Part shown: in pieces, positions 1 to 28,689 of the stretch | Layout: each line of letters opens with the position of its first letter | Position numbering within the stretch: the first letter of the stretch is position 1 | Assembly: GCA_943357175.1 (NCBI GenBank) | Contig: CALRGE010000005.1 | Coordinates: 1 to 64,000, forward strand | Origin: Candidatus Peribacteria bacterium | Lineage (GTDB): Bacteria > Patescibacteriota > Gracilibacteria > UBA1369 > 2-02-FULL-48-14 | DNA length: 64,000 nucleotides | Direction of reading: 5' to 3' | Notes under the pieces: model-generated | Databases searched by the model: none | The model's input: the letters and a program-made list of their open reading frames with translations, nothing else | Told to the model about the DNA's origin: nothing | Made by a program: the position numbers and the translations under genes

Positions 1-2
1 CA

Positions 3-2483
3 CCTAAAGCTGGCAGGGGGGATGAATTCGAAAGTAATGGTTTGAATGGAGAACAACTCAGCTATAAGATTTTAGAAATAGACGATGTAGTGACTGATGC
101 AGATACGTATACATACGACGACTATCCAAGTCTGTTTGATTTTGAAGAAGATGGTTTTTCATATGGAAATATCTCCACTGGAGAAGCCGGATTCATTAGC
201 ATGATGTTTGCAGATGCAATAACATTAGAGGGAATTGGTAGTAGAACTACTGATATCGATTGGTCATCGGATGAGTATCAAATACTCGGTGTATGGGAAT
301 TAAGTACAATCGGTGAACTTGAAACCACAGGAACTGAATTTTACATTGGAGATCCAGCTGATGAAAAACTATTAAAGGATTATTTTGTGGAGGAAGTATT
401 CGGGATGTTTCCAGCATCAGCATTAAAAATCACCACTACAGAAATTGATCCAGGTGAAAGTGACTATGCAATAGATCAAAGCTTTAATATACCTACATTA
501 GATGGAAGTAAATTCTATGCTGACGAAAAGGTAAAAATTACAGTATCAGGTATTCCTAATCCTGACATGGAAGATGATTATGAATCTGAAATGTTTGGTG
601 GCAAGAAAGTTTCTCTTAAAATTGGAGGCATTACGGCAATAAGCAGCGGAGAAACTGACTCAGAAATGGATCTGGCCTATGAAGACTTTCCTGATGTATT
701 TATTTTTGACGAAGATGGATTTAGCTACAGTGGAATAACACTCGGTGAACAAACCTTTGCCTGTGACAGCTTAACACTTGCTGAAACCGCAACTGGATCT
801 AAATCTTCAACAATCACCTATACAATTACAAGTGCAGACGCAACAGCAGCAGGTGAAGATTTTTCCGGAATTATCAATGTATCCACAAGCGGCACCGGTG
901 CATTAGCTTATAAGAAAACAAAAGGTACTGAACTAAGTTTCACAGGAACAGGTAGTGGACGCTTCACATATCTCACAACAACAGATGGCGACATTATATC
1001 AGCCTCAGTTGAAGGAGAAGAAACAAATTGCAGTTCAAGCTTAACTATCGCGAGAGAAATCAAAACCGCACCGGTTGCCTCAACCGCCGTGACAACCTCA
1101 ACCGCCGCAACATACAACGACAGCTACATCACAATTTTAGATGTTGAAGGTAATCCAATTACAGATCTTGATGTAGAAAACTTTCTAGTAACAGAAAAAA
1201 ATGGACTTGAAATCGTTGACTTCGACGCAAGCAGCTCAAAATCAGGAATTTACAAAATTAATCTACAGGAAACACCGAAGACAGATTATAAAGTATTGGT
1301 TAGTTCAGATGGATACGTTAGCGGAAAAGTTGAAATTGACGACAACACAGCTGATTACGCCGCAAGCGTGACACTACATTACGGATATGCGGTTTACCCT
1401 GTTACAACTGACAATGAAGGAATTTCCGGAGCAACCGTAACAGCCGGTGATGATTATGAAATTGAGTGTATAGAAGTCGGAACAGGTGCAATTTATACTT
1501 GTGTGATTCCGCTTGATCACGAAGATATTGCATTCAAAGTTGAAGCTGAGGGTTACGATGATTATGATGATGAATTTAAAGCTGACAGAACTGAAAATAC
1601 AGATATACAAATAAAGGCAAAAGCAATTATGACGATACCAGGAGGTGTAGCTGATGAGCCAGACACGACTACCGACACAGACAATGATCTTTTAACAGAT
1701 TACGAAGAGGAGAATGAATATTTCACTGATCCTAAAAATTCAGATTCAGATGCTGATAATCTCTCTGATTACGAAGAAGTGATTGATCTTGGAACTGATC
1801 CAAATAATAGCGACACTGACGGTGACGGTAGCCCAGACGGTACAGAAGTTACATATGGAACAGACCCACTTGTTAGTGATGTTGAAGATGAAGAAACAGA
1901 AGAAGTTGTCAAAATGGAAACAAACGAATTCTGTACACCTTTTGATGATATTGTAAGCCACTGGTCTGAAACTGATGTGTGTACTTTATACACAGCCGGA
2001 TTCGTGAAGGGCAAATCAACAACAATTTATGATCCTGATAACTATGTGACTCGAGCCGAATTCCTAAAATTAATCATGTTAGAATCAGGTTATGATCCTG
2101 CAGATGAAACAGATCTTGAAGTTACGAAATACAAAGATGTAAACCAGGGTGATTGGTATTATGATTACGTTGCCTTAGCCGACGAGAACGGATTCCTTTG
2201 GTATCCAATTAACGATAACTGGCTTCCAAATGAACAAATCACAAGAGGTGATGCAATTTTGTTGGCAATTCGAATTGCTAAATTAACACTCCGTGATTTC
2301 ACAAGTGATGACTCTTCATTTACAGATTTCGATCCTGATTCATACCAAGCCTATGCAATTGTCCTAGGTGAACAATATGAAATAATCAGCGGATACGACG
2401 ACGGCACTTTCAAAGCAAACAACCCAATCACAAGAGCTGAAGCTGCTGTGATTACAAATAATGCAGAGGTTTTATTTGAGTAA
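3..2483 (+). CDS. Giant SLH-domain surface protein, 5' end outside window (type A)
   Basis: The frame is open from base 3. A TTG at 42 is not a credible start, because the upstream codons already encode a copy of an internal repeat, so the gene starts before the window. Modules in order: two copies of a beta-rich domain of about 190 aa ending in a 'DEDGFSY' motif (to about nt 760); an Ig-like stretch (760-1060); a carboxypeptidase-regulatory-like module with a Cys pair and a terminal 'GYDDY' (about 1110-1620); thrombospondin type-3-like Asp-rich Ca-binding repeats such as DTDGDGSPDGTE (1660-1880); and three SLH repeats (1925-2470) with TRAE/TRGD motifs. SLH domains bind pyruvylated wall polysaccharide in known systems, so this is probably a wall-anchored adhesin or S-layer protein. 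Its SLH region is closest to that of the 5336-8512 gene. The ligand is unknown. Confidence 0.85.
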   Translation, partial: PKAGRGDEFESNGLNGEQLSYKILEIDDVVTDADTYTYDDYPSLFDFEEDGFSYGNISTGEAGFISMMFADAITLEGIGSRTTDIDWSSDEYQILGVWELSTIGELETTGTEFYIGDPADEKLLKDYFVEEVFGMFPASALKITTTEIDPGESDYAIDQSFNIPTLDGSKFYADEKVKITVSGIPNPDMEDDYESEMFGGKKVSLKIGGITAISSGETDSEMDLAYEDFPDVFIFDEDGFSYSGITLGEQTFACDSLTLAETATGSKSSTITYTITSADATAAGEDFSGIINVSTSGTGALAYKKTKGTELSFTGTGSGRFTYLTTTDGDIISASVEGEETNCSSSLTIAREIKTAPVASTAVTTSTAATYNDSYITILDVEGNPITDLDVENFLVTEKNGLEIVDFDASSSKSGIYKINLQETPKTDYKVLVSSDGYVSGKVEIDDNTADYAASVTLHYGYAVYPVTTDNEGISGATVTAGDDYEIECIEVGTGAIYTCVIPLDHEDIAFKVEAEGYDDYDDEFKADRTENTDIQIKAKAIMTIPGGVADEPDTTTDTDNDLLTDYEEENEYFTDPKNSDSDADNLSDYEEVIDLGTDPNNSDTDGDGSPDGTEVTYGTDPLVSDVEDEETEEVVKMETNEFCTPFDDIVSHWSETDVCTLYTAGFVKGKSTTIYDPDNYVTRAEFLKLIMLESGYDPADETDLEVTKYKDVNQGDWYYDYVALADENGFLWYPINDNWLPNEQITRGDAILLAIRIAKLTLRDFTSDDSSFTDFDPDSYQAYAIVLGEQYEIISGYDDGTFKANNPITRAEAAVITNNAEVLFE

Positions 2484-2515
2484 TTTCTTCAGTGGAAGAA
2501 TTCAAGAAAACTAGT

Positions 2516-2544
2516 TTGCAAAAACACCCTTCTTGTGGTATAAT
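2516..2544 (+). promoter_or_regulatory. Sigma-70-type promoter of the 901-aa SLH gene
   Basis: TTGCAA (2516-2521), a 17-nt spacer and TATAAT (2539-2544), 24 nt before the ATG at 2569. The arrangement closely matches the promoters at 5284 and 31030 (TTGCRA followed by A's, 17-nt spacer, then an AAGAT/CAAGAT-like initial region). Confidence 0.75.
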
Positions 2545-2568
2545 TGCAAGATTTAAAAACAAAAACAC

Positions 2569-5274
2569 ATGAAAAAAGTATTCTATGTCCTCGTCGCCCT
2601 CACCTTCATTGCAGCCCTCGCCTATTTCTTTAGCACTTCAAATTTGAAGGGAGCTTTTATGTTTCGAAAGGAAGCCATTCTAACTATAAATAAGGGTGAA
2701 AGTGGTGGAACAGTAGTAGATTGGATGTCAACTAAAGACTATACTTTGGGAAAATGGAAAGTAAGTGCTACACAAGATGTGACAATAAGTGAATTTCATG
2801 CAGATTTCCAAAACTCTGATATTGCTATGAGCGCAAATGTAGATGAACATTTCAATAACGTTCACCTTAAAGTTTTAAACTCAAGTGTTGGTGACAGTGA
2901 TTATACTAATTTTAACGAAGAAGACTTTACGATTAAACTTCTTGCAGGAGAAACTTATTACTTTGAAATCGCTGGTCAACCTGACATAACAATGCAGGAT
3001 GACTTCACAACTACATTCAATGGACAAGAAATGGTAATGGGAATTGGTAAGATGACATTAAACAATGGAACAACATACGAACAACACGTAGATTACGATC
3101 AAAGTAAATATTTTAACGGGGACGAAAATACAGATAGTGGAACATTCATATTATACTATGCACATGGTGGCTACGTTGTTGCCAGCATGCCGGTGGAGGA
3201 AAAAAAAGTAAAAGTAATAGCCTCTGAAGCCGCACTTACTGTTACTGGAGTAGGAAGCGGTAAAACTTTAGTTGATTGGGAAAATTTGACAGAAGAATCT
3301 GGAGAAAAAAAGGAATATACTTTAGGTCAATGGGATGTTGCTGTAGCAAAAGATATGATCATATATGATTGGCGTTTCTTTATTGGTGAGCCAGACGAGA
3401 TAACTATTGAAAACTTTTTCAGTGAATTAAAAATTATTGCTGAAAATGGTGATAAATCAATAGTCCATGAATATGCATATGGAACAAGTCCTAATATATT
3501 TCATGAAGGTAAATGGAGATTCACTTTAATGGGTAGTCCAAAAGTTGATGCCCCTGATTTCACCGAAGTGTTAGAAGGCAGTAAGATAGCAATGCAAATT
3601 GGGTCATTAGAATTTATTATGCCTGAAATCGAAGAATTGCCTGAGGCTACAGCAGAAGTTGATTCAACAATGCCTGCTCCTGATGCAACCGGCATTCCTA
3701 GTACAGACCCTTCAGCCCCAACAGAATCTACTGAATTACCAATAACTCTAGAAGGAAGACACAACATTATTGATGATGATTCCAGCTCTTATTTTGCATT
3801 TGACGGTGGACTCTTCAGTTTTGGTGGAAAAACTATATGGAGTTCAGACTACGTTCCTGATGCAAGTGAAGCACTTGCAACTAGATCAATCGTCATTTCT
3901 GTAAGAGAAAAAATAACAGGAACAAATATTACAGATATAATAAAGCCAGATGAGATTCATGTTTATGGCCCAGCCGACAGTGGAATCGAAGTAACAGATG
4001 TAATGGTTGGCAAAAGTACTGATGGCCAAAGTTACCATTTAAAAATACCAACTGTAAGCCTAACTGATACATATAATGTAAGCATTGAAGCATCAGGATT
4101 CGTAGCCAAAGGATATGGCCCATTCTCAACTGCAGAAAATGGACATATTGCTAAAGGTGAAGGTAATACAGGGATTAAAATCCTAGACCTGGAATATGCA
4201 TATTATGTAACTGTTGAAGATGCAAGTGCTACAAAAATAGAAAATGCATTAGTTATTCTTCGTGACGGCAAACTTGCATGTAATCAATTAGACAAAAAAA
4301 TTCCGGGCGTTTATGGATGCCGTATACCATTTGAAACAACAGATCTAAGTTTTGAAGTAATCTCAGAAGGTTATGACACAATTAACTCTGCATTCACAGT
4401 TGTAAGAGCAACCCCTAATGCTTCAGGTGAACATGTGAAAATTGTTATGTACCCAACTGGTACAACACCTGCCGATACTGTAACTGAGACTACAACGGAA
4501 ACAACAACAGAAGTAACTACAGATTCAAGTACAGCAATTGATACAACTATTGACGCAAGTATGACTTTCGACGAAAGTCCAAACACTAGTGCAGCAACAG
4601 GTGTTTTCACTCCTGATTCCGCAACTGAAGATACAACAAGCGCGGAACCTATAGTTGTTGCAAGTGAAGAAAGATTGGAAATAATGACTGATGAAGAATA
4701 TGAATGTGAAGACCCTTTCACAGACACATCAAGAATCGCTGCACATGATTTGATATGCAGACTTTACAACTCAGGAATTTTCAGTGGAAAATCATACAGC
4801 ATATTTGCTCCTTATGATTACATCACTCGAGCTGAATTCCTAAAGGTTGCACTTTTAAACTCAGGCTATACAACTGACGACGCAACCGGATTGAAAGAAT
4901 ATCTATCAGACGTTAAAGATAGTGATTGGTTCTCAGATTACGTAAAAATCGCCGTTGATGAAAAATTCATTTCAACTTCAAGTGGCAAGTTTAATCCAAA
5001 TGAAAAAATCACACGAGCTGACGCAATTGTTTTGACAATGAACATTGCAAGACAAGAAGCTCCAGAATACACAAGATACGACATTCCGTTCAGCGACGTA
5101 GAAATTACAGATTACTTTGCTGACGCGGTAATGATGGGATACTTAACAGAAACTGAAGAAGGTGATGCAATCATCGGTGGTTACAGCGACGGTACATACA
5201 AACCCGGCGACTACATCAGGAGATATGAATCAGCTTCAATAATTTACCGAACATATTTGGCACTCTACGAGTAA
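2569..5274 (+). CDS. Giant SLH-domain surface protein (type B, 901 aa)
   Basis: Begins with a Lys-rich N-region and one hydrophobic segment (about residues 4-21) without a clear AxA site, then the motif L26-K27-G28 that is shared with other exported proteins here. Residues about 38-215 and 220-360 are two copies of the beta-rich domain also seen in the first gene ('DW...LG.W' near its start). About 440-625 is a degenerate carboxypeptidase-regulatory-like module with a Cys pair. A Thr/Ser-rich linker (627-705) leads to three SLH repeats (709-901) with TRAE and TRAD motifs. Unlike its neighbours it has no Asp-rich Ca-binding repeats. The SLH part is closest to that of the 8520-12026 protein. 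The predicted site is the cell surface, bound to wall polysaccharide; the molecular role is unknown. Confidence 0.87.
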   Translation: MKKVFYVLVALTFIAALAYFFSTSNLKGAFMFRKEAILTINKGESGGTVVDWMSTKDYTLGKWKVSATQDVTISEFHADFQNSDIAMSANVDEHFNNVHLKVLNSSVGDSDYTNFNEEDFTIKLLAGETYYFEIAGQPDITMQDDFTTTFNGQEMVMGIGKMTLNNGTTYEQHVDYDQSKYFNGDENTDSGTFILYYAHGGYVVASMPVEEKKVKVIASEAALTVTGVGSGKTLVDWENLTEESGEKKEYTLGQWDVAVAKDMIIYDWRFFIGEPDEITIENFFSELKIIAENGDKSIVHEYAYGTSPNIFHEGKWRFTLMGSPKVDAPDFTEVLEGSKIAMQIGSLEFIMPEIEELPEATAEVDSTMPAPDATGIPSTDPSAPTESTELPITLEGRHNIIDDDSSSYFAFDGGLFSFGGKTIWSSDYVPDASEALATRSIVISVREKITGTNITDIIKPDEIHVYGPADSGIEVTDVMVGKSTDGQSYHLKIPTVSLTDTYNVSIEASGFVAKGYGPFSTAENGHIAKGEGNTGIKILDLEYAYYVTVEDASATKIENALVILRDGKLACNQLDKKIPGVYGCRIPFETTDLSFEVISEGYDTINSAFTVVRATPNASGEHVKIVMYPTGTTPADTVTETTTETTTEVTTDSSTAIDTTIDASMTFDESPNTSAATGVFTPDSATEDTTSAEPIVVASEERLEIMTDEEYECEDPFTDTSRIAAHDLICRLYNSGIFSGKSYSIFAPYDYITRAEFLKVALLNSGYTTDDATGLKEYLSDVKDSDWFSDYVKIAVDEKFISTSSGKFNPNEKITRADAIVLTMNIARQEAPEYTRYDIPFSDVEITDYFADAVMMGYLTETEEGDAIIGGYSDGTYKPGDYIRRYESASIIYRTYLALYE

Positions 5275-5283
5275 AATCGTAGC

Positions 5284-5312
5284 TTGCGAAAACCCGCATT
5301 TTGAAGTATAAT
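5284..5312 (+). promoter_or_regulatory. Sigma-70-type promoter of the 1058-aa SLH gene
   Basis: TTGCGA (5284-5289), 17-nt spacer, TATAAT (5307-5312), ATG at 5336. It lies in the 61-nt gap after the previous stop and matches the promoters at 2516 and 31030. The next SLH gene (8520) follows after only 7 nt, so it is probably transcribed from here too. Confidence 0.75.
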
Positions 5313-5335
5313 GGTAAGATTTATTCAAAATAAAT

Positions 5336-8300
5336 ATGAAAAACAAAAAATTAATCCTCGCCGCTTTAAGCCTCGCTCTAATTGTCGGAGGCCTCGCCTA
5401 CGGATATAGCAACGGTGGTTTGTTGCAGGGTAGATTGTCAAGTGGTTCAGGCCAAACTCAGGGAATTATTTCAGTTTTAATTGGTGATGAGTATTATGAT
5501 GTTGAGAATATCGATCAAGATCATATTATCAAAGATTTAACGGTAGATAATTTTCATGTTATTAGTCAAGATTACATTGGTACCAATTCTTTTGAGGCAT
5601 TAGGATGGATATTTGAAGGTATATATCAATTAGGAGTAGTGAATGACACTGTCTATAGAGTCACAGCAAGCGCAACCGGTTATGTAAGTACAACAGAATT
5701 AATGAAATCATGTACTGACGGAATGTGCAGAGGTATTGATGCAACAGCGATGGTTGACAGTGAGGATACAGGCTTAGAATACAAAGGTAATGCAATCAAT
5801 CTCGATTATGCATACAAAGTGATAGTTCAACATGAAAACAATAGTCCAGAATCTGGGGATACGATTGATTACACATTGGCAACAGTCACAGCAGGTGATT
5901 TAAGTACAACATGCACATACCAAGAAAATGGTGAATCTATAGATCCAATGGATCCAAAAACATATTATGACTCTACAGGTGGTGAAATAGATACCGCCAG
6001 TCTTGAGACTTTTATGGGTGATTTGGATTCAAATTATTACACAGTCTTCACATGTCCTGTTCCACTTGAAACAACTGATGTCAATTATAAAGTTGCCCTA
6101 GATGGCTACATCACAGAAACAGGTGTTTTCTTCTACGACAGAATAAGTAATTCTGATGCTCAACAAATTGTTGTGACAGACATAATGACAGCCGGTACTG
6201 ACCCTGTTGAAGAAGAAGTAGTTTTATACGACAGCACAATTACAGTAGTCGATTCAAACGGTGTTGCCGTAACAGACTTAACTGAAGATGATTTCAGTAT
6301 CATGATGAATTCTACGAGCATTAGTGAATTCGACAGCAGGCAATTAAGCTCTGGAATTTACGTCTTAAGTTTAGAAGACGATCCGACTCTTGGCACATAT
6401 ACATTATATGTGACACCTGAAGGTTACGTGAGAGGCTCAGCTACAATATCTACCGATACAGAAGTTACTCTCGAACACAGCTATTCAATCTTTCCTGTGA
6501 ACTCAAGCGCGGCAGCTGTTTCAGGCGCAACGGTAACAGTTATTTCGGGAAGCGATATTTTCGATTGTACCGAGTATCTCACAACAGGTGGATATTACTG
6601 TGAAGTAACTACACTTTCTTACGACTATCTAACTTATAATATTGTGGCAAGCGGATATGATGATTACGATGTCACATTCGATGCGTACAGAAGTTTCAAT
6701 ACTTCTTCGGCAGTAACAGCCTCACCTATTTTAACAGAAGGCACAAGCTCTGGAACAGATTCAACCGACCTCACTTACAACAACATGTACGTGACTGTAG
6801 TTGACTCGCTATCAAATCCTCTCACAGATTTAACTGAAGACAATTTCATAGTGACTGAAGAAAATGACCTTGGAATTGTTTCATTCGACGTCAGTGGATC
6901 AAGCACTGGAACTTATGCGTTGAGCTTACAGGTAACCGATGATACAAATTATGATTTAACAGTTAGCTCAACAGGACTTGTGAGTGAAAGCCATGTATTA
7001 AAAGATAATAAAATAGATTACCAAACTGGTATGATAATGAAATATGGATACAGAGTTGCTGTTGAAAACAGCACAGCTGAAGTTATTTCAGGAGCAACAG
7101 TTACTGCCGGAACAGCCTACGATACAGAATGTATTGAAAGTGGAACTGGAGGAGTTTATGCATGTTTGATTCCTGTTTCGAATACAGATTTAACATTCAA
7201 AGTTGTGGCGACCGGATACGATGATTATGAAGACTCATTCAGTATTGATCGAACTTTAGATTCAGATGCCGGTGTTAAAGCATTAGTAACAATGACAACC
7301 ACAGACCCGGATGCTGATGCAGATGGAGACACATACACTAGTGCAAATGATTGTAATGATTCTGATGCAACAGTTTACACAGAAACTACTTATTATGCAG
7401 ATACTGACGGCGACGGATTAGGAGATCCTGCTAGTTCAACTTCATCTTGTACAGCGACTGCTCCAACCGGATACGTTTCAAATGCAACTGACACTTATAT
7501 TGAAGATTATGATAATGATGGCGTTACTACAGCTTCAGATTGTGACGACGATGACGCAACTATTTCAGCACTACAAACTTACTACGTTGATGCGGACAGT
7601 GATGGACTTGGAGATTCAACAAGTTCAGTTTCAGTTTGTCAGCTTACAGCCCCAACCGGATATGTGAGCGATTCAACTGATACCAGTGACACAGTTGCTA
7701 CAGTCGATACTACAACAGATACTGATGGTGACGGTCTAACAGATTATTCAGAAACAAATGCATACGGAACAGATGCAACTGACACAGATAGCGATGCAGA
7801 TAATATTTCAGATTACGAAGAGGTGGTAACATTTGGAACTGACCCAATGGATAGCGACACTGACGCTGACGGTACTCCTGACGGTACTGAAATTGAAATG
7901 GGAACAGACCCACTTTCTGCAAGCAAAACAAGTAAACCAGCAAACGACGACGGCTTATGTGTTGATCCATTCATTGATATGGAAGGTCACTGGGCAGAAG
8001 TGGCAGTTTGCACACTTTATGAACAAGGAATTGTTAAAGGTAAAAGCTCAAATATATATGATCCAAACAGTAACGTTACTCGAGCAGAATTCCTAAAAAT
8101 GATAATGCTTCAAGGTGGCTACGACCCAACATATTACAGTGGAATTAGTGTTACAAAATATTCAGATGTGAATGTTGGTGATTGGTACTACACATATGTT
8201 GCATTAGCAGATCAAATGGGAGCCCTATGGTATCCATCTTCAGGTGTTTGGCAGCCTAACAGCCCAATCACAAGAGGTGATGCAATGCTTCTATCTGTGA

Positions 8301-8512
8301 GGCTTGCAAAATTAACACTTCGTGGATTCACAGCAGCTGATTCAACATTCACAGACTTTGATGTTAACAGCTATCAAGCTTATGCAATCGTTCTCGGAGA
8401 ACAATACGGAGTAATCAAAGGTTATGACGATGGTTCATTCAAACCAAATTACAGCATAACTAGAGCCGAAGCTGCAAAAATAATTAACGGCTCAACAGTA
8501 TTATTCGAATAA
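5336..8512 (+). CDS. Giant SLH-domain surface protein with metal-binding repeats (type A, 1058 aa)
   Basis: N-terminal hydrophobic segment (about residues 5-22) followed by L30-Q31-G32, the motif shared with the neighbouring exported proteins. The middle holds one partial and two full carboxypeptidase-regulatory-like modules (about 150-275, 298-475, 480-650). Each full module has a 'DLTEDDF' start, a 'GYV' step, a Cys pair and a terminal 'GYDDY'. Residues about 657-790 carry Asp-rich motifs like the putative metal-binding MopE family ('ANDCNDSDATVY'). About 792-863 are thrombospondin type-3-like Ca-binding repeats. 875-1058 are three SLH repeats with TRAE. The order matches the first gene from the module onward, suggesting duplication. 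Likely a wall-bound, Ca-stiffened stalk or adhesin; the ligand is unknown. Confidence 0.87.
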   Translation: MKNKKLILAALSLALIVGGLAYGYSNGGLLQGRLSSGSGQTQGIISVLIGDEYYDVENIDQDHIIKDLTVDNFHVISQDYIGTNSFEALGWIFEGIYQLGVVNDTVYRVTASATGYVSTTELMKSCTDGMCRGIDATAMVDSEDTGLEYKGNAINLDYAYKVIVQHENNSPESGDTIDYTLATVTAGDLSTTCTYQENGESIDPMDPKTYYDSTGGEIDTASLETFMGDLDSNYYTVFTCPVPLETTDVNYKVALDGYITETGVFFYDRISNSDAQQIVVTDIMTAGTDPVEEEVVLYDSTITVVDSNGVAVTDLTEDDFSIMMNSTSISEFDSRQLSSGIYVLSLEDDPTLGTYTLYVTPEGYVRGSATISTDTEVTLEHSYSIFPVNSSAAAVSGATVTVISGSDIFDCTEYLTTGGYYCEVTTLSYDYLTYNIVASGYDDYDVTFDAYRSFNTSSAVTASPILTEGTSSGTDSTDLTYNNMYVTVVDSLSNPLTDLTEDNFIVTEENDLGIVSFDVSGSSTGTYALSLQVTDDTNYDLTVSSTGLVSESHVLKDNKIDYQTGMIMKYGYRVAVENSTAEVISGATVTAGTAYDTECIESGTGGVYACLIPVSNTDLTFKVVATGYDDYEDSFSIDRTLDSDAGVKALVTMTTTDPDADADGDTYTSANDCNDSDATVYTETTYYADTDGDGLGDPASSTSSCTATAPTGYVSNATDTYIEDYDNDGVTTASDCDDDDATISALQTYYVDADSDGLGDSTSSVSVCQLTAPTGYVSDSTDTSDTVATVDTTTDTDGDGLTDYSETNAYGTDATDTDSDADNISDYEEVVTFGTDPMDSDTDADGTPDGTEIEMGTDPLSASKTSKPANDDGLCVDPFIDMEGHWAEVAVCTLYEQGIVKGKSSNIYDPNSNVTRAEFLKMIMLQGGYDPTYYSGISVTKYSDVNVGDWYYTYVALADQMGALWYPSSGVWQPNSPITRGDAMLLSVRLAKLTLRGFTAADSTFTDFDVNSYQAYAIVLGEQYGVIKGYDDGSFKPNYSITRAEAAKIINGSTVLFE

Positions 8513-8519
8513 AAATAAA

Positions 8520-11500
8520 ATGTTCAAAAAAATCGCAATATTAATGGTGGTTTTAAGCATAATCGGCGGTGCCGCATTCATGTTTAATACAGCGATGTTG
8601 AAGGGAGCAGTTAGGATGGGAGACATAAACAAAGGAACATTCTCAGGAATAAGTGTAAATCAACCAGATACAACAATCGAAGTGCCAGAGTCAACAGGAA
8701 CAGTAACAGCGGTAAGTACAGGAATACCCTCACTTTACGTTAATAAATTAGGCACAGAAACAATAGAAATTGACTGGGATTCAGGCACAGAAATTAATTT
8801 AGGTACATATGCTATTCACGGTACTGTTGATATGACAATCTCAGATTTTGAACTGTATATAGATGTTCCAGAATCCTACCCAATTTCAGATTATTTTTCA
8901 CAAATCTTCATAACTCAAAATCAAGAGGGACTCTCTACAATCAATCGATCTGTATATGCAAACTCAAGTAATACACTTGATGCAAATGCAATGTATAAAT
9001 TCACAGTTTCTGGTGTCACAATTCCTGGAATCGATTTTAGCGCACATGAAGGTAAACAAGTCTCTATGATTGTTAATAAATTCGTAACAACCGATGGAGT
9101 ACCTTACACACTAGCAGCCCATCCAGGTAGTTATTTTTTTGATCTTAACCAAGCAACAGTCTCCGGATACACATATGGTGGATATACTTTAACTAGTGCG
9201 GAGGAAGATGCCGTTGAAGCCCCACAACCAGCAGCTACCTACTCAAATACTATTACAGTTACAGATGAGAATGGAGAATTAATCACTGATTTAACTGAAA
9301 GTGATTTCAGTATTGCAATGAACACCACAACAATCAGTGACTTTGCCAACAAGGGCTCAGGAATTTATCTTATAACATTAGCAGATGGAACGGCAGCATC
9401 TTACACATTACTTGTTAGTCCAGATGGCTATGTAGTCGATGGTTTACCATATAATGAAGGCTACGGTTCAGCAACCATATATGACGACAAAGTCTACACT
9501 GCAAGTGTTGTAATTGACCACGGATATACAATCTTCCCTGTTGACTCAAGTGGAGCAGCAGTTTCTGGCGCAGATGTAACAATTACAGATGGAACCTGTA
9601 TAGAATATCTAACAACAGGTGGATATTACTGTTTAGTAACAACGCTTAATTCAGCTCCAACATACACAATTATTGCAACTGGCTTTGAGAATTTTAGCAA
9701 AATATTCGATGAATATAGAACATACCCTGTCTCAGCCACTATAAGTGAAAGTCCTGAATTAACAGCCGGCTCATCAGAACCAGCTGCAGAAACTCCTGAC
9801 ACAGAAGAAACCGGAACAACAGGTGGCCTTGAATTCGCATTCAAAGAATTAGTTAGTGGTACGGGTTTAACAGCAAAATTAAGCACAGAAGATTTACACT
9901 TTTATAGTTCTGCCGACTCTTCAACAGAAGTTGAAGCGACAGTAGAGTTAATATCAGCACCAAAAGGTAAAACTACAATGGGGGCAACTCTCCCAGAAGG
10001 TGAATATACCGTGACAGTTTCACCTGAAGGTTACGTGAGTCAAGAATTTGGACCATACATAACTGCAGAGAATGTTTTCTTGGCAGATGCAAATTTTGAA
10101 AAACTAGAATACGGATATTATGTTCATATTTTAAATGATGCAAACACAAGTACCGTGATTGCAAACACAGTTGTTGAATGTGACAGCTTAGGTGATGGTT
10201 ATTACGGATGTGCAATCCCACTTAGTGTATCAATTCCAAATTTCACGGTTAGTAATGGTGAATATGCAGATTACTCAGCAAGCTTCACAACAGTTAGAGA
10301 TGAAGCCGCTGATCCAAGTGAAACAGCTGAAATGAGCTTAGGCGATTCAAGCCCACTGACAGGTGACGATTGGGTTATTCCAATTTCTGTTACAGATAGT
10401 ATTGGCCAGGTTATTGAAGGATTAACAGAATCAAATTTTGATCTTGGTGACCAAACCTTAACAGCAGTTGAAGATCTACTCGATGGAAATTATTATTTAT
10501 TCGTTGAGAATGGAGATGGAGATAGTTACGATGTGACAATTAACCTAACTGGCTATGTGAGCAACACAGCAGCTTATGACTCTGTAGATTTCGAAGAAAT
10601 TGCATTTGAAAGTACTGTGAATGAAATCACATTAGAATTCACTCACTACCTTAGATTACTTGATGCTGCAGGTGCAATAATCACAGGAGGAAAAATTACA
10701 GCCGGTGATAACTTTGCTGTTGAATGTTTAGATTTCTCAATCTTAACAACAGATTACGACGGCTTCTACGCATGTGGAGTTCCATCAACTGACAGCTCAA
10801 CTTTATTCAATGTTAGCGCGACCGGATACGACGATTACGAAGGCGACTTTGCAACTGAAGGTACTTTAGATGCAGAAGGTTATGTTACGGTAGATGTAAC
10901 TTTAACAAGCTCTACGACTGAAGATACAGATGCTGATGCCGTCGCTGATGACGTTGATGCTGATGATGACAATTACACTAGTGAAAATGACTGTAACGAT
11001 GCAGACTCAACAGTTTACGAAACATCAACCTATCATTTAGACGCCGATGGAGACGGTTACGGCGATTCAACAACAGGAGTAGAAATATGTTCCGCGACAA
11101 CACCTTCCGGCTATGTTGCGACAGGAACAGATTGTAGTGATACAGATGCAACAGTCTACACAAATCAAACATACTACTACGATGCTGACTCAGATGGTTA
11201 TGGTGATTATTCAACTTACGTTTCACAATGTACGATGACAGCACCAACCGGATACGTTACTAACAGTACTGATACAAGTGATGCGGTGGTAACAACAACT
11301 GCCACAACAAGTACAAGTAGCACAGATACAACTGCCACAACTTCAAGTAGTTCTTCTAGCTCATCAGCTTCAACAACATCAACAACTGCAGCTACAGCTA
11401 CAACAAACACTTCATCATCAGCAACAAAATCCGAAATCCTATCTGATCCTGATTATGTTTGTAACACTTCATTCTACGACATTATCGGACACTGGGGTTA

Positions 11501-12026
11501 TAATGGAATTTGCCGACTTTACAAAGCAGGAATTGTTAACGGTAAAACATCTACTACATTCGCACCAAACGATTATATTACTCGTGCCGAATTCCTAAAA
11601 ATCGCCTTGGGAAATGCCGGATACACAGTGAACGATGCAACAGGTTTGAGCGAAACAATGTTAGATGTTAACGACAGCGATTGGTACTCACCTTGGATTA
11701 AAATTGCAGAGAATAAAGGATTCCTTGGAAATGGCGGGGTAAATTGGTATCCAAATGCACTACTTTACAGAAAAGATGCAGTTGTAATAGCAGTAAGAAT
11801 TGCTAAACAAACACTTTACGGATTCACTCAAAATGACATTAATTTCACAGATGTATTCGTTAGTGATTACTTTGCATATGCAGTAATTCTTATGAACAAT
11901 ACAACTGTTGAAGGCAGTCCAATCATTAGTGGTTACTCAAACGGACAATTTGGAGGAAGCTACCACATGACAAGAGCTGAAGTCAGCGCAATGATTATAA
12001 GAGCTTACCTTGCTTGGTATAATTAA
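8520..12026 (+). CDS. Giant SLH-domain surface protein with MopE-like repeats (type B, 1168 aa)
   Basis: Starts 7 nt after the previous stop with no promoter in the gap, so co-transcription is likely. Hydrophobic segment (about residues 5-22), then L27-K28-G29. One copy of the beta-rich 'IDWD...LGTY' domain (about 50-235) is followed by three carboxypeptidase-regulatory-like modules (about 240-400, 415-590, 605-785), each with paired Cys. Residues about 800-915 hold two MopE-type metal-binding motifs ('ENDCNDADSTVY', 'GTDCSDTDATVY'). A Ser/Thr homopolymer-like linker (about 920-970) leads to three SLH repeats (975-1168). The SLH repeats resemble those of the 901-aa protein, so the four tandem genes alternate A-B-A-B. 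Predicted extracellular and wall-bound. Confidence 0.87.
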   Translation: MFKKIAILMVVLSIIGGAAFMFNTAMLKGAVRMGDINKGTFSGISVNQPDTTIEVPESTGTVTAVSTGIPSLYVNKLGTETIEIDWDSGTEINLGTYAIHGTVDMTISDFELYIDVPESYPISDYFSQIFITQNQEGLSTINRSVYANSSNTLDANAMYKFTVSGVTIPGIDFSAHEGKQVSMIVNKFVTTDGVPYTLAAHPGSYFFDLNQATVSGYTYGGYTLTSAEEDAVEAPQPAATYSNTITVTDENGELITDLTESDFSIAMNTTTISDFANKGSGIYLITLADGTAASYTLLVSPDGYVVDGLPYNEGYGSATIYDDKVYTASVVIDHGYTIFPVDSSGAAVSGADVTITDGTCIEYLTTGGYYCLVTTLNSAPTYTIIATGFENFSKIFDEYRTYPVSATISESPELTAGSSEPAAETPDTEETGTTGGLEFAFKELVSGTGLTAKLSTEDLHFYSSADSSTEVEATVELISAPKGKTTMGATLPEGEYTVTVSPEGYVSQEFGPYITAENVFLADANFEKLEYGYYVHILNDANTSTVIANTVVECDSLGDGYYGCAIPLSVSIPNFTVSNGEYADYSASFTTVRDEAADPSETAEMSLGDSSPLTGDDWVIPISVTDSIGQVIEGLTESNFDLGDQTLTAVEDLLDGNYYLFVENGDGDSYDVTINLTGYVSNTAAYDSVDFEEIAFESTVNEITLEFTHYLRLLDAAGAIITGGKITAGDNFAVECLDFSILTTDYDGFYACGVPSTDSSTLFNVSATGYDDYEGDFATEGTLDAEGYVTVDVTLTSSTTEDTDADAVADDVDADDDNYTSENDCNDADSTVYETSTYHLDADGDGYGDSTTGVEICSATTPSGYVATGTDCSDTDATVYTNQTYYYDADSDGYGDYSTYVSQCTMTAPTGYVTNSTDTSDAVVTTTATTSTSSTDTTATTSSSSSSSSASTTSTTAATATTNTSSSATKSEILSDPDYVCNTSFYDIIGHWGYNGICRLYKAGIVNGKTSTTFAPNDYITRAEFLKIALGNAGYTVNDATGLSETMLDVNDSDWYSPWIKIAENKGFLGNGGVNWYPNALLYRKDAVVIAVRIAKQTLYGFTQNDINFTDVFVSDYFAYAVILMNNTTVEGSPIISGYSNGQFGGSYHMTRAEVSAMIIRAYLAWYN

Positions 12027-12063: not shown

Positions 12064-13728
12064 ATGCCTACAAAATATATATTTGTCACTGGCGGAGTTT
12101 GTTCGAGTTTAGGCAAGGGTATTGCCACAGCCTCAATCGGCGCTCTACTTAAAGCTGCAGGTTTCAAGGTTTTCACAATGAAACTTGATCCTTATTTGAA
12201 CGTAGATCCAGGGACAATGAGTCCATTTCAGCATGGTGAAGTTTATGTAACAGAAGATGGTGCTGAAACAGATTTGGATTTAGGTCATTACGAAAGATTT
12301 ATAGATGAAAATTTAAATGAAATGTCTTCTGTTACTACAGGAAAAATCTATACTGAAGTTTTGCAAAAAGAACGCCGTGGAGATTATTTAGGTGGAACAA
12401 TTCAGATCATTCCACATATTACAGAGGCAATCAAAGGTAGAATTACAAAGGCTGCGAAAGCAAGCGGTGCAAAAATTGTGATGATTGAAATTGGTGGAAC
12501 AGTTGGAGATATTGAAGGACTTCCCTACTTAGAGGCAATTCGTCAGATGCGTCACGAATTTGGCAAAGAGAATACATTATTTGTTCATCTTACGCTCCTT
12601 CCCTACTTGAAAGCCGCAAAAGAACTGAAAACAAAACCAACTCAGGCATCTGTGCGTGAGTTAAGATCAATTGGTATTCAGCCTGACATTATTATGACTC
12701 GAGCTGATAAAAATATTTCTACTGATATTCTCGAGAAAATTTCACTTTTCTGTGACGTTGAGAAAAACTGCGTAATTCCTGCGGTAACTTGCAAATCAAT
12801 TTACGAAGTTCCTCTAAACTTTAATCAATACAAACTTGCGGAGCTTGTTGCCCAAAAACTTCACCTTGGAAACGTGACGCCAATGCTTGAAGACTGGGAA
12901 ACTTTGGTTTCAAAAATTCAGGCGAAGCGAGATCTAGTAAAAATTTCTCTTGTTGGTAAATATACGAATCTAGATGATGCCTATCTTTCAGTTATAGAAT
13001 CATTAAAAATTGCCTGCTATCACCAAGATAGAGAGCTTGATTTACAATGGATAGATTCTGAAAAACTTGAGAGTAATGATGAAAAGTCATGGGAAATGCT
13101 TAAATCTTCAGATGGGATTCTTGTTCCAGGTGGTTTCGGAATTCGTGGCATTGAAGGGAAAATTATGGCAGCGAAATATGCACGTGAAAATAAAGTTCCA
13201 TACTTGGGGCTTTGCCTAGGTTTACAGATAATGACTATTGAATATGCTCGATTTCACTTGAATGATTCAAAACTAACTAGCGAAGAATTTGATGAAGACG
13301 CAAAATTAGCCGCAAATAAATATGTGATTCATTTCATGCCGGGTCAGCACAAAAACAAAGATAAAGGTGGTACATTACGACTTGGAGCTTATCCATGTAA
13401 ATTAACAGAAGGAACTCTTGCTCATAAATTATATGGTCAAGATTTGATTTTCGAAAGACACAGGCATCGCTATGAGATTAATAATAACTACGTTAAAAGC
13501 CTAGAAGGTACCGACTGGCAACCTTCAGGTGTGTTCGAAGAAGGAAACTTGGTTGAAATTGGAGAGCTAAAGAATCATCCGTTCATGATTGGGTCACAAT
13601 TTCACCCTGAATTTTTATCAAGACCACACAGACCTCATCCACTTTTCATGGGATTCATTGAAGCAAGCAAAAAATTAAGCAAATCAGGCACAAACAAAGT
13701 GAACTCCTCGGAAGAAATCGAGGCTTAA
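12064..13728 (+). CDS. pyrG: CTP synthase
   Basis: Converts UTP to CTP using ATP and glutamine. The 554-aa length is typical. The N-terminal synthetase domain begins with the family signature 'FVTGGVCSSLGKGI' and contains 'KLDPYLNVDPGTMSP'. The C-terminal class I glutamine amidotransferase has the nucleophile Cys in 'LGLCLGLQ' (about residue 385) and the His-Glu pair in 'FHPEF'. It is the first gene of a tight plus-strand run (next start 14 nt after its stop). No promoter with a good -35 is obvious in the 37-nt gap upstream. The last 15 residues are a hydrophilic tail. Confidence 0.97.
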   Translation: MPTKYIFVTGGVCSSLGKGIATASIGALLKAAGFKVFTMKLDPYLNVDPGTMSPFQHGEVYVTEDGAETDLDLGHYERFIDENLNEMSSVTTGKIYTEVLQKERRGDYLGGTIQIIPHITEAIKGRITKAAKASGAKIVMIEIGGTVGDIEGLPYLEAIRQMRHEFGKENTLFVHLTLLPYLKAAKELKTKPTQASVRELRSIGIQPDIIMTRADKNISTDILEKISLFCDVEKNCVIPAVTCKSIYEVPLNFNQYKLAELVAQKLHLGNVTPMLEDWETLVSKIQAKRDLVKISLVGKYTNLDDAYLSVIESLKIACYHQDRELDLQWIDSEKLESNDEKSWEMLKSSDGILVPGGFGIRGIEGKIMAAKYARENKVPYLGLCLGLQIMTIEYARFHLNDSKLTSEEFDEDAKLAANKYVIHFMPGQHKNKDKGGTLRLGAYPCKLTEGTLAHKLYGQDLIFERHRHRYEINNNYVKSLEGTDWQPSGVFEEGNLVEIGELKNHPFMIGSQFHPEFLSRPHRPHPLFMGFIEASKKLSKSGTNKVNSSEEIEA

Positions 13729-19275: not shown

Positions 19276-19821
19276 TTACGACAGTTTTAAAATTTCGTAG
19301 TCAATAATTCCAGCTGGTACATTGATTGTAACAACATCTCCGGCTTTTCTACCCATAAGTGCCAAACCAAGTGGCGCCTCATTTGAAATTCGATTATTTG
19401 AAACATCAGATTCTGTTGAACCAACCAAAGTAAATTCGTGTTCCTCTGATTTTTTCTTAGTATTTCTTATGAAAACTTTTGTTCCAATCTCAACCATTTG
19501 TTTTGAATGAGTTTTCTCATCAATAACCTTTGCCTTTTTCACCTTTTCTTCAAGTTCCATAATACGACCTTCAACGAAAGCCTGTTCATTTTTTGCCTCT
19601 TCATACTCTGAATTCTCAGAAAGATCACCGTAAGAAATAGCCTCTTTCAATCTTTTTGCAATTTCTCTTCTTCGAGTTGATTTCAAAAATTCAAGCTCGT
19701 CTTCAAGAAGTTTCAAACCTTCTTTAGTCATAACTACGCTTTCTTCCTCAAAAGGAAGTACTTTTTTAGATTTTTTGGATTTTTTCTCATCCATGTCCTG
19801 ATCGTCGTGTTGTTTAGACAT
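19276..19821 (-). CDS. greA: Transcription elongation factor GreA
   Basis: Rescues backtracked RNA polymerase by stimulating transcript cleavage. After a charged N-terminal extension of about 27 residues, the normal GreA coiled coil begins at 'VVMTKEGLKLLEDELEFLK'. The tip motif 'AISYGDLSENSEYEEAK' carries the acidic residues that reach the polymerase active site, and the C-terminal FKBP-like domain contains 'EAPLGLALMGRKAGD'. The family is usually about 158 aa, so the 181-aa length comes from the extension. It is last in a minus-strand unit with rpoD (9-nt gap) and dnaG. Confidence 0.96.
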   Translation of the reverse strand: MSKQHDDQDMDEKKSKKSKKVLPFEEESVVMTKEGLKLLEDELEFLKSTRRREIAKRLKEAISYGDLSENSEYEEAKNEQAFVEGRIMELEEKVKKAKVIDEKTHSKQMVEIGTKVFIRNTKKKSEEHEFTLVGSTESDVSNNRISNEAPLGLALMGRKAGDVVTINVPAGIIDYEILKLS

Positions 19822-19830
19822 ATTTTAATA

Positions 19831-21183
19831 TTAGTAATAAGAACGAATTTTAACGCTGGTTGGGTGTTCTCGCAATTTATGCAGAACTTTTGCCTCAATC
19901 TGACGAATTCTTTCTCGAGTTACTCCAAATTCAGTTCCAACTTCTTCCAATGTATGTCCAATTCCATCTTTAAGTCCAAATCGCATCTCAATAATTTTTC
20001 TCTCTCTTGGAGATAAATATTGCAACATCTCATGAATATTCTCCTTAATTAATTGTCTGTTTGTTTGCTCATCAGGAGAAAGTGAATCATCATCTTTAAT
20101 GAAATCTCCTAACTTACTGTCTTCTTCCGCACCAACCGGCGCCTCAAGCGAAACAATGTCTTGAGAAATCTTCATTATGTGACGAACCTTCTTTATATCC
20201 ATATCCATTTCAGCCGCCAACTCTTCAATCAATGGCTCACGCCCAAGCTCCTGCACCAAACGTCGTTGAGTGTGAGTTAGCTTGTTGATTGTTTCAACCA
20301 TGTGAACCGGAATACGAATCGTTCGTGCCTGATCAGCGATTGCTCGAGTGATAGCCTGACGAATCCACCAAGTTGCATAAGTTGAGAACTTGAAACCTCG
20401 ATCTGGATCAAATTTTTCTACAGCACGGAAAAGACCAATGTTTCCCTCCTGAATAAGATCAAGGAAAGAAAGACCACGACCAATATATTTTTTAGCGATC
20501 GACACAACTAAACGCAAGTTTGCTTCAGCCAATTTTGCCTTAGCAGATTGATCACCTTTAGCAATTTTTCTAGCTAAATCAGCCTCTTCTTTTGCAGTTA
20601 ACAGATCAACTTTACCAATTTCACACAAATACATTCGAATTGAATCATTCGCAATTTCAGAAAGATCAACAGTTTTCTTTGCCTTAGATTTTCTTTTATC
20701 CTCTTTATCTTTTGCATCCTTAGCATCTTTAAGCGCAGCGGCTTCTTCAGCTGCAGCATCAATCTCTGGATCAACATCCTCTAAAAGATCATCCCCATCA
20801 ACAGCCTCAATAGCAGCCAAAGCAGCTAAATCTTCATCTGAAACATCTTCATCATCAAGATTGCTGGCCTCTTCTTTCAAATCTTCAACTTCAAGATCAG
20901 CATCAACATCAGGCTCCTGACCCATACTCATTTCCTCTTCTTTCTTACCCCAAATCATTTGATCTTTAACATCAATCAATTTAATTCCAAGCTCCATCAA
21001 AAGTGTATAAACCTCATCTGCAAAAGTCACGTTTTCCTCAAGATTAGGAAGAGCGTGCATTAATTCTTGCTGTGTCACGAAACCACGATGACGCCCCTTA
21101 TCAATAAGATCACGTATCTCTTGTGGGTATTTTGCCAAGTTTTCCTCAGAGAAATGCGCTATAAACTTTCTAGTTCTGGCCAT
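19831..21183 (-). CDS. rpoD: Primary RNA polymerase sigma factor (sigma-70)
   Basis: 450 aa. An N-terminal region 1.1-like domain and an acidic linker (about 90-165) are followed by regions 2 to 4: '[18 protein letters not shown]', '[22 protein letters not shown]', '[13 protein letters not shown]' (the -10 recognition helix), and a region 4 helix-turn-helix '[20 protein letters not shown]' for the -35 box. The start overlaps dnaG by 14 nt, giving the classic dnaG-rpoD macromolecular-synthesis pairing. Confidence 0.97.
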
Positions 21184-22942
21184 TAGTCTTTAGATTAGAG
21201 GAATATTCGAGATAGAGCAGCGCGATCAATTTTTCCATTTCTTCCTTGACCAGTTCCGGGTTCTGATTCTTAAATTCCGCCTCAAACACCAATTTCTTGA
21301 GAGTCAATGAGTCTTCTCTACTCTGATAGAAGCCCTCATCAATCGCAGCGTGGAGATTATAGTAATCTCTTAGCTGTTTGTAAACATGACTTGCATTAAT
21401 CTCAAAATCTTCGCGTAATAAGAAATTTTCAAAGTCTTCAAAAAAGTCCGCGAGTTTTTCCACATTAAACTGCCTCACCAAACCTAACTTCTCTACAATT
21501 AAAGCAAAATCTTCAGCTTGCTTCATCTTCTCCCAAACCTCGAAACACTGCTTAGGAAAAGTCAAAATCAAACCTAAAAACTCTTCAAAATATCTTTCAA
21601 GTTTATCTTTTTTAACAGCAATTTTTTCTTTCACCACACGCTGACTTCGCTGTTTAGAAGAAAAATTCTGTTTTATCAAATCATAAAGTAACTCGATTGG
21701 AGTACCAACCAGCTTCGACAATTCCTTCAAATAATGATCTTTCTCAACAGGATGCGCCATTCCCTCAAGCAAATCCAAAATTTTATTCGTAAACTCTTTC
21801 TTTCCTCCTGAACTTGCCAAATCATAAAGTGCCTCATATTTCTCAAAGAAAAAATCCATATAAGGTTTTTTAGCGGCCACCGCAGCCGTCCATAATTCAG
21901 GATTTTCTTTCACCGCATCAGCCGCATCTTTCCCACTTGGGATTGTGACTACAAAAATATCAAAACCCATAGGCTGTGCTATCAAAACACTCCTTAAAAG
22001 CGCCTCCTGACCGGCATTATCTGCATCAAAAGCAAAAGCTAATTTTTTAGTATAACGTTTTACCAATTTCAATTGTTCTTCAGTTAAAGCGGTTCCACAA
22101 GTCGCAACCACATTTTTCTCTCCTGCCTGCCAAGAAGCAATTGTATCGAAATAGCCCTCCACAAACACAACAAAATCGAGTTCTTTTATATACTTCTTAG
22201 CTCGTGAAAAATTATACAAAACCGAACCCTTGTTATAAAGAACATAATCTGAAGAATTTAAATATTTTGGATCGTCGCCTTTTTTCAAAGAACGCCCACC
22301 AAATCCAATTGACTCTCCCCTATCATTCAAAATTGGAAACATTAGACGCAACCGAAATCTATCCAGCACATTCTGAGCTGTAGCATCTTTCGCCACAACC
22401 AAACTTGTTGTTAAAATTCGTTCTTTGAGCGAGCCTTTTTCCAATAAATGTCTGTAGAGCAAATCATAAGAATCAGGAGAAAAACCGACATCAAATTCGT
22501 TTATAGTCTCTTCAGTCAAACCTCGCCTTTTCAAATAGTCCAAAACCTTCGCACCGGCTTCCCCGTTCCACAAATTCTGAACAAAAAAATGCGTAGCAGC
22601 CAAATTTATATCTTTCATTTCTTCCTTTTCATCTTTAGAAACCTTCGGTCCACCCTCAAATTTCGGCAACTCCACATTCGCCCTATCCGCCAACAAATCA
22701 AGTGCTCCCTTAAAATCTAGTCCTTCAATTTCCTGAACGAACTGGAAAAGATCTCCACCCTTATTACAACCAAAACAATATGCAATTTGCCTTTCAGGAT
22801 TCACATGAAAACTCGGCGTTTTTTCAGAATGGAAAGGACAACATGCCTTAAAATATTTCCCGGCTTTTTTGAGCGGCACATAAGAAGCCACAACATCTTC
22901 AATCGATAGTTTCGACTTGATTTCCGCAACAGCATCAAACAT
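21170..22942 (-). CDS. dnaG: DNA primase
   Basis: Makes RNA primers for replication. The CHC2 zinc finger has C35, H38, C56 and C59. The catalytic TOPRIM domain is visible in '[15 protein letters not shown]' and '[12 protein letters not shown]'. A poorly conserved C-terminal helicase-binding region follows (590 aa in total). The ATG is preceded by GAGG 5 nt upstream, a real Shine-Dalgarno, which is rare in this window; the site lies inside a small hairpin. Confidence 0.96.
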
Positions 22943-22947
22943 AAGAA

Positions 22948-22959
22948 CCTCGTTAGAGG
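22948..22959 (-). promoter_or_regulatory. Hairpin covering the dnaG ribosome-binding site
   Basis: Minus-strand CCTC-TAAC-GAGG, whose 3' arm is the GAGG Shine-Dalgarno 5 nt before the ATG. An extended -10 (TG-C-TAATAT) lies about 20 nt further upstream. The 4-bp stem is short, so any translational control is speculative. Confidence 0.4.
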
Positions 22960-23109
22960 CTTTTATATTAGCACAAGGGTCAATAATAAAAACAGGGATA
23001 CGAATTTCTTCATTTAAAATGGGATAATAATGTATTTCTGGCTAAGTATAAAGGAATAGAGACAATTTACATAGACTGACTTCAGTTCTCAATGCCAAGC
23101 AATTTAGCC

Positions 23110-23136
23110 TTGCCTTAGGGGGGTATATGTTATAAT
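23110..23136 (+). promoter_or_regulatory. Promoter of the 183-aa secreted protein
   Basis: TTGCCT (23110-23115), a short 15-nt spacer and an extended -10 (TG-T-TATAAT, ending 23136). The ATG is at 23171. The extended -10 probably compensates for the non-ideal spacer. Confidence 0.65.
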
Positions 23137-23170
23137 AGAGGGAATGATTTAATTCTTTAACAAAAATAAA

Positions 23171-23722
23171 ATGAAAAAATCATCAATTACAAAATTCGCC
23201 GCAATAGGTATTCTGGTCGCAGTCATTGTAGGCGCTGCAGTCATTTCAAATAAAGAAAATTTGCAGGGAAATCTATCAAAGGTAGCAAGTGTTGAACTTA
23301 AAGCATTGAGTTCAACAGATTGTACTGGAACTCTTATATACGACAAAACGAACGGGAGCACTGGTACTATGAATTTTAACCAACTCTCAAGCTTATTCAC
23401 AAGAGACAGCAGCTCTGCAACTGATTGTAAATATGAAATTGCTCTATATGATGGCAGTAAAATGAAAAACTTTTCAGACTACACTCTTCCATCAAACGGT
23501 TACTCAAACAGTGCAACCATTTACAGTGTAAGATCAAATGGTTCAACTGATCCAGACTTAATGGAATTTAAAATATTAGATGGTGGAAGCTATCCACTTG
23601 TAATATCTATAGATCCAATTTTGAAATCAGCAATAGCTAGTGGATGCATTGATACTGGTACAACAATAGGTTGTCTAACAACAGGAGCAATTAGTAATAT
23701 AGAGTTAGTTGTAAGTTATTAA
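23171..23722 (+). CDS. Small exported protein with L-Q-G motif (183 aa)
   Basis: Has an N-terminal Lys-rich tract and a hydrophobic segment (about 9-25), then L31-Q32-G33, the same post-membrane motif as in the giant SLH proteins. The mature part (about 150 aa) is Ser/Thr-rich with four Cys and looks beta-rich. It has no SLH or Asp repeats. It has its own promoter and terminator, so it is a single-gene unit. Candidates are a pilin-like subunit or a small surface protein; I recognise no family and propose no function. Confidence 0.8.
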   Translation: MKKSSITKFAAIGILVAVIVGAAVISNKENLQGNLSKVASVELKALSSTDCTGTLIYDKTNGSTGTMNFNQLSSLFTRDSSSATDCKYEIALYDGSKMKNFSDYTLPSNGYSNSATIYSVRSNGSTDPDLMEFKILDGGSYPLVISIDPILKSAIASGCIDTGTTIGCLTTGAISNIELVVSY

Positions 23723-23735
23723 TCAAGAAGTAGTG

Positions 23736-23768
23736 AAAAGTCCTGGGCAAAATGCTCGGGACTTTTTT
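23736..23768 (+). terminator. Intrinsic terminator after the 183-aa gene
   Basis: A stem of about 13 bp, AAAAGTCCTGGGC with GCTCGGGACTTTT (two G-T pairs), with a 5-nt loop, followed by a T tract to 23768. It slightly overlaps the end of the convergent vapC-like gene. Confidence 0.85.
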
Positions 23769-24156
23769 AAATACTTATTATTTTCAAGCCAAGCACTTTC
23801 TTGAAATCTTTTATATTTCTGGTCAATAAAGGCGCATTCATACTCATTGCAGTGGCAGCAATTAAAGCATCAGGCAATTTAATTTTACTTTCTCTACGAA
23901 AACGCGCAGTAATGTCTGCAATATTTGGATCAAGATTTACCTGATGAAAATTGCTTTTAAAAAACTTTTTTAAAAAATGAACTTCATCATCAGATAATTT
24001 TGAAAAAGACATTGCCTCAATTTCAACAATGACTGAAACATATAACAAACCACACAGGGAACTATATCGATTCAATAGATCCACGATAAACATATCTCGA
24101 TTTAAGAAACCCACAACAACATTAGTATCAACGAAGATTACTTTATCTCCACTCAT
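23767..24156 (-). CDS. vapC: PIN-domain toxin (VapC family)
   Basis: 129-aa PIN-domain ribonuclease. Acidic metal-binding residues are visible in 'FVDTNVVVGFL' (D10), in 'IVEIEA' (Glu, about 45) and in 'LPDALIAATA' (Asp, about 97), with a last polar site near 'TRNIKDF'. VapC toxins cleave specific RNAs, often tRNA. The start overlaps the end of a 58-aa upstream ORF by 14 nt, the usual coupling of antitoxin and toxin. Confidence 0.88.
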   Translation of the reverse strand: MSGDKVIFVDTNVVVGFLNRDMFIVDLLNRYSSLCGLLYVSVIVEIEAMSFSKLSDDEVHFLKKFFKSNFHQVNLDPNIADITARFRRESKIKLPDALIAATAMSMNAPLLTRNIKDFKKVLGLKIISI

Positions 24157-24319: not shown

Positions 24320-24325
24320 AATCAG

Positions 24326-24354
24326 ATCCTAGCAAAAAAAATTGGTCATGACAA
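24326..24354 (-). promoter_or_regulatory. Promoter of the toxin-antitoxin pair (leaderless)
   Basis: On the minus strand: TTGTCA (24349-24354), 17-nt spacer, TAGGAT (24326-24331), then 6 nt to the antitoxin ATG. Transcription would begin at or next to the start codon. Confidence 0.68.
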
Positions 24355-24357
24355 ATT

Positions 24358-25362: not shown

Positions 25363-25374
25363 GCGCTTCTTATA

Positions 25375-28646: not shown

Positions 28647-28689
28647 CGTTTGAATGCTAACATGCTTTCGATTTAAAAATAAGCATCAT

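Follow-up and report, generated by a model that had tools for sequence, protein, structure and literature searches.

A probable SLH-anchored surface-display cluster of reshuffled modules in the trpS-pyrG interval of a Peregrinibacteria family

The window, by which we mean the whole stretch of 64,000 nucleotides analysed here, covers the opening 64 kb of contig C5 in the 1.23 Mb genome, of 20 contigs, of a very small, uncultured bacterium. It opens with four neighbouring same-strand reading frames ahead of pyrG, whose module anatomy was read with profiles built in this analysis:

3..2483, plus strand: gene 1 (A type), open at its 5' end, with the 3' 826 codons in the window; leader, two D domains, E module, one ab unit, TSP3 repeats, three SLH domains
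C16:1-473, minus strand of contig C16: N-terminus of gene 1, the first D copy running onto C16
contig C16: trpS, upstream border of the cluster, 44 bp before gene 1
2569..5274, plus strand: gene 2 (B type), 901 aa; leader, two D domains, one ab unit, Thr-rich linker, three SLH domains
5336..8512, plus strand: gene 3 (A type), 1058 aa; leader, three ab units, Asp-rich repeats, TSP3 repeats, three SLH domains, without a D domain
8520..12026, plus strand: gene 4 (B type), 1168 aa; leader, one D domain, three ab units, Asp-rich repeats, Ser/Thr linker, three SLH domains
12064..13728, plus strand: pyrG (CTP synthase), downstream border of the cluster

The contig end truncates gene 1, which an exact overlap of 40 bases with the reversed C16 completes to a protein of 971 aa. 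The spacers from trpS through genes 1 to 4 to pyrG measure 44, 85, 61, 7 and 37 bp, as in an operon; the plus strand of the cluster showed no terminator-like site, promoter- and terminator-like sites occurring at chance frequency. On account of these spacers and the lack of a plus-strand terminator-like site, it is plausible that the cluster forms a single transcription unit with trpS and pyrG. A catalytic role for the four genes was considered and dropped, as an enzyme domain was found in none of them. Each protein ends in three SLH domains:

1923..2480, plus strand: SLH trimer of gene 1, A type
4699..5271, plus strand: SLH trimer of gene 2, B type
7952..8509, plus strand: SLH trimer of gene 3, A type
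11454..12023, plus strand: SLH trimer of gene 4, B type

All four C-termini match PF00395 above the Pfam cut-off with three repeats, confirming the four adjacent SLH-ended genes of the first-pass annotation, although its description of them as giant was too strong for proteins of 901-1168 aa. The two SLH subtypes that it proposed are likewise real: identity is 65% between genes 1 and 3 and 46% between genes 2 and 4, against 39-42% between A and B tails. A tree built from 19 SLH tails joins genes 1 and 3 at 100/100, and the pairing of gene 1 with gene 2 is rejected (p-AU 0.0004). Of the expected grouping of A with A and B with B, the first half is thus secure; genes 2 and 4 do pair in the best tree (79/73), but this half is weak, since a tree with gene 4 placed beside the A pair is not rejected (p-AU 0.36). 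An insert ahead of the last SLH core is found in the B tails and in the locus-class tails of relatives, and is missing from the A tails and from those of contig C7; B therefore looks like the family type of tail, with A a derived or replaced form, and no A-type tail was seen in any relative. Locus-class tails form a group apart from the remaining SLH tails (97/93), with the SLH-only protein of the relative G002 among the latter. The four window tails form a clade of their own, though at only 82/77, and the four tails of G004 do so at 100/99. This clustering by genus points to separate expansion in each genus, or to homogenisation within genomes.

The N-terminal part of three of the four proteins is occupied by the D domain, of about 190 aa:

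216..761, plus strand: D domain, second copy of gene 1
2665..3219, plus strand: D domain 1 of gene 2
3205..3846, plus strand: D domain 2 of gene 2
8703..9221, plus strand: D domain of gene 4

The suggestion that this domain matches no known family was borne out: D had no significant sequence match (best Pfam E 0.038, best PDB E 0.18), and gene 2 had no NCBIfam match. A single-sequence search of 59 relatives gave no D match and a profile search one further copy, while a class scan of 241 genomes placed D in two genera only, that of this genome and that of G002. One D copy of this genome lies in a small secreted protein on contig C10. The D module tree is mostly unresolved, the D of gene 4 being nearest to that of the pyrG-proximal gene of G002 (84/88). 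The G002 D gene adjoining pyrG (L064:8206-9177) lacks an SLH and stops apparently in the middle of a b-like domain; it is probably a truncated relative of gene 4.

Further elements lie at the following positions:

768..1112, plus strand: Cys-flanked E module of gene 1
1662..1871, plus strand: TSP3 (type-3 Asp) repeats of gene 1, with 70% DNA identity to 7706-7915
7310..7705, plus strand: Asp-rich, 'MopE-like' repeats of gene 3
7706..7915, plus strand: TSP3-type repeats of gene 3, below the Pfam cut-off
2569..2664 (gene 2), 5342-5440 (gene 3) and 8523-8615 (gene 4), plus strand: leaders of the KK..GG.AF....LKG type

The E module recurs in locus proteins of G000, G001, G002, G003 and G004. The type-3 Asp repeats noted earlier pass the TSP3_bac (PF18884) cut-off of 25 bits in gene 1 (34.4) and are present in gene 3 at a sub-threshold 18.1 bits. 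The MopE-like label fared worse, having no Pfam match at E<=1 behind it; the Asp-rich repeat itself is common to genes 3 and 4 (7310-7426 and 10950-11066; 72% DNA identity over 117 bases). Farther along, at 31090-39614, the window holds two large open frames of 1574 and 1213 aa, the first without a Pfam match at E<=1 and the second with one sub-threshold match only. With its 26 Cys, the 1213-aa frame looks like the E module on visual comparison only, the profile search being negative; both proteins were dropped as cluster members, as they have no module in common with it.

The leader K-K...G-G-x-A-F...L-[KQ]-G is carried by the locus proteins of the family that have a complete start, except the SLH-only protein of G002. 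An A-x-A site occurs at the expected position in few locus proteins, whereas most non-locus SLH proteins of this genome have one. The same leader type also occurs on small secreted proteins, both here and in other members of the order. At 23171-23722 the window encodes a small secreted protein with a cluster-like LQG leader (weak profile match, E 0.25).

Between these elements lie the GYDDY modules, here termed ab units:

1113..1637, plus strand: ab (GYDDY) unit of gene 1
3880..4464, plus strand: ab unit of gene 2, with a divergent a domain
5468..7309, plus strand: three ab units of gene 3, that at 6224-6745 being sister to 9240-9773 of gene 4
9240..10919, plus strand: three ab units of gene 4

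The a and b halves match each other in profile searches, and the b half has an invariant Cys pair. An AlphaFold2 model from the third ab unit of gene 3 and nine relatives reached a mean pLDDT of 87.8, and its PDB matches include the TIE adhesin (E 1.9e-5), SpyCEP, pilins, scaffoldin complexes and the carboxypeptidase D TTL (TMt 0.69). CarboxypepD_reg (PF13620) matches six of ten ab units at E<=1 (best 2.2e-5), and the third unit of gene 3 scores 17.4 bits, below the cut-off of 32.3. Given these TTL/CnaB-like structures and the sub-threshold CarboxypepD_reg matches, the GYDDY module is predicted to be a divergent tandem of two transthyretin/CnaB-like sandwiches; the fold is a known one, and the earlier view of the module as unmatched is to be revised. 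No profile relation between D and ab was detectable.

The modules are common to the genes, as first read: D is present in 2, 2, 0 and 1 copies and GYDDY in 1, 1, 3 and 3 copies in genes 1, 2, 3 and 4. Their tree does not follow the tails. The second ab unit of gene 3 is sister to the first of gene 4 at 100/100, in discord with the SLH tails; the unit of gene 2 pairs with the second of gene 4 at 92/93; and groupings of GYDDY units from A genes only are rejected (p-AU 0.0105 and 0.0047). The disagreement between the ab tree and the tails, together with the Asp-rich repeat common to genes 3 and 4, supports module exchange across the subtypes, in which modules would have been swapped between A and B genes.

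The first-pass annotation placed the duplication of an A-B gene pair before this exchange. Such a history agrees with the pairings of the best SLH tree (genes 1 and 3, genes 2 and 4), with the closeness of the gene 2 unit to the second unit of gene 4, and with DNA repeats shared by genes 1 and 3; it is compatible with the data. However, alternation arises by chance in two of the six possible orders of two A and two B genes, the spacers within the two pairs differ (85 and 7 bp), the support for B with B is modest, and the A tails are more alike than the B tails, though a single event should date both. Moreover, the pair was seen in no relative. We regard this duplication as possible but doubtful. 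The likeness of genes 1 and 3 might also stem from later gene conversion of the TSP3-SLH end instead of whole-gene descent: their highest identity is limited to the last ~260 aa, upstream of which their modules differ and part of gene 3 is closer to gene 4. However, the last ab units of genes 1 and 3 are also close (49% identity), as descent predicts, and conversion of this kind seems to us rather unlikely.

The gene neighborhood was compared in relatives, of which those with names are mostly Ca. Peregrinibacteria/Peribacteria MAGs. The genes priA, trpS and pyrG stay together across this Peregrinibacteria order. Outside the family trpS adjoins pyrG, with priA close upstream, in nine of the genomes examined (G025, G013, G041, G021, G058, G018, G010, G011 and G016) and in L065; in G044 an unrelated gene lies between trpS and pyrG. 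All three family relatives that can be read end to end have 1-5 secreted, mostly SLH-anchored proteins between trpS and pyrG: one protein gene in G001; five genes in G002, including one SLH-only protein with an ordinary signal peptide and one D-only protein without SLH; and four in G004, with lengths from about 870 to at least 2208 aa. In G003 and G005 the contigs break inside the cluster, and the cut contig of G003 carries several cluster genes. The module set between trpS and pyrG differs from genus to genus. Leader/SLH proteins also occur away from trpS-pyrG on C3 of G005, so that the cluster is not the sole site of such proteins in the family.

Other SLH proteins were seen in these genomes. 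On C16, divergent from priA, lies one with an MXAN_6640-like HExxH metalloprotease domain (L025:3486-5690; 116 bits against a 140-bit cut-off), and SLH proteins of ~730-780 aa are found near the matching place in G001, G002, G013, G025, G041 and G016. A 5085-aa open frame (G000:C6 ~19605-29477) has SLH matches in two places ~9.5 kb apart. Two non-locus SLH proteins on C7 (L017:4381-6600, 739 aa; L018:13340-15637, 765 aa) have two ab units each; their signal peptides are ordinary, and they retain all three SLH grooves.

In Paenibacillus alvei SpaA, each ligand pocket combines Arg43, Gly29 and Trp13, every residue coming from another SLH domain; groove 2 is the primary site and groove 1 the secondary one (PMC6081394). 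With residues assigned by alignment to one Paenibacillus structure, and the complete residue sets of grooves 1 and 3 deduced here from threefold symmetry, the groove-1 triad Arg43/Gly29/Trp13 is intact in 15 of 15 locus-class tails, including all four window genes. Groove 2 is lost in the same 15, where the SLH3 Trp and, in most, the SLH2 Gly as well are missing, and none of the window genes retains it; it is intact in 10 of 13 other tails. As the tails are related to each other, this pattern is a class difference and not 15 independent events. The genome encodes a CsaB-like pyruvyltransferase (PF04230, E 2.2e-31), which may serve another polymer.

Taken together, these observations make it fairly likely that the locus is a lineage-specific surface-display cluster with reshuffled modules, anchored by SLH domains and established between trpS and pyrG; its products would probably serve as adhesins or coat proteins, tethered by a pyruvylated polymer of the wall. 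An ancestral protein with leader and SLH domains would have settled in the trpS-pyrG interval of a single Peregrinibacteria family and multiplied separately in each genus, while D, ab/GYDDY, E, TSP3 and other modules were duplicated, swapped and lost. The proteins would be exported via the conserved N-terminal leader and held at the wall by the C-terminal SLH trimer, probably through the SpaA-type groove 1, in most proteins also groove 3, with a pyruvylated polymer as the putative ligand. The tandem transthyretin/CnaB-like sandwiches, probably stapled by a disulphide of their Cys pair, and the Asp-rich repeats, which presumably bind Ca, may form a stalk. D or another N-terminal module, farthest from the anchor, would be the likely contact surface, acting as a head in attachment.

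Alternatively, the four proteins could be structural coat subunits of a true S-layer lattice and not adhesins. Lattices usually consist of one dominant conserved protein, whereas gene number (1-5) and module order here vary by genus, and we consider a lattice improbable. It would nonetheless accord with the SLH anchoring, the acidic composition and the tandem Ig-like sandwiches, and S-layer genes are reported from Peribacteria (PMC4736985). Within the preferred surface-display reading, a more specific and only tentative proposal, on the unlikely side in our estimate, is that the trpS-pyrG cassette is a fixed diversification site, kept by one family within a housekeeping transcription unit, in which a constant leader and an SLH anchor without the primary groove of SpaA are combined with freely exchanged N-terminal heads (the orphan D and E) to give genus- or strain-specific contact proteins.

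Among characterized systems, SpaA, SlhA and Sap of Paenibacillus alvei and Bacillus anthracis also have three SLH domains with TRAE, GIIxG and Trp motifs, and a CsaB-like gene is present here too; the window proteins differ in their C-terminal trimer, in having lost the primary groove 2 of SpaA while keeping groove 1, and in their other extracellular modules. CnaB/transthyretin-like domains (CarboxypepD_reg, PEGA; TIE, pilins, carboxypeptidase D TTL) resemble each GYDDY half in predicted fold, but GYDDY falls below the Pfam cut-offs seen and has a Cys pair in the b half. Bacterial TSP3 (PF18884) resembles the Asp-rich repeats that precede the SLH trimers of genes 1 and 3, of which only gene 1 passes the cut-off. 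Of the same broad lineage are the large, exported, variable and in part Cys-rich proteins of Ca. Peribacter riflensis; the available text of that report describes large, strain-variable extracellular proteins of Peribacteria with a suggested attachment role (PMC4736985) and mentions neither SLH domains nor this site, whereas here there is a fixed locus with an SLH anchor. The kind of protein is thus already known, since large variable extracellular proteins have been reported from Peribacteria (PMC4736985). Within the searches made, the fixed trpS-pyrG site, the SLH class without a primary groove and the two unmatched modules D and E are new.

Contact between ultra-small CPR bacteria and other cells is poorly understood, and functional annotation is missing for many proteins of their surface. 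The interval from trpS to pyrG offers a fixed, easily recognised locus of fast-changing surface proteins, and thus a place where strain-level and partner-linked variation may be sought. D and E are two unnamed modules to solve, and an SLH class that has lost its primary groove but kept another gives a direct binding prediction.
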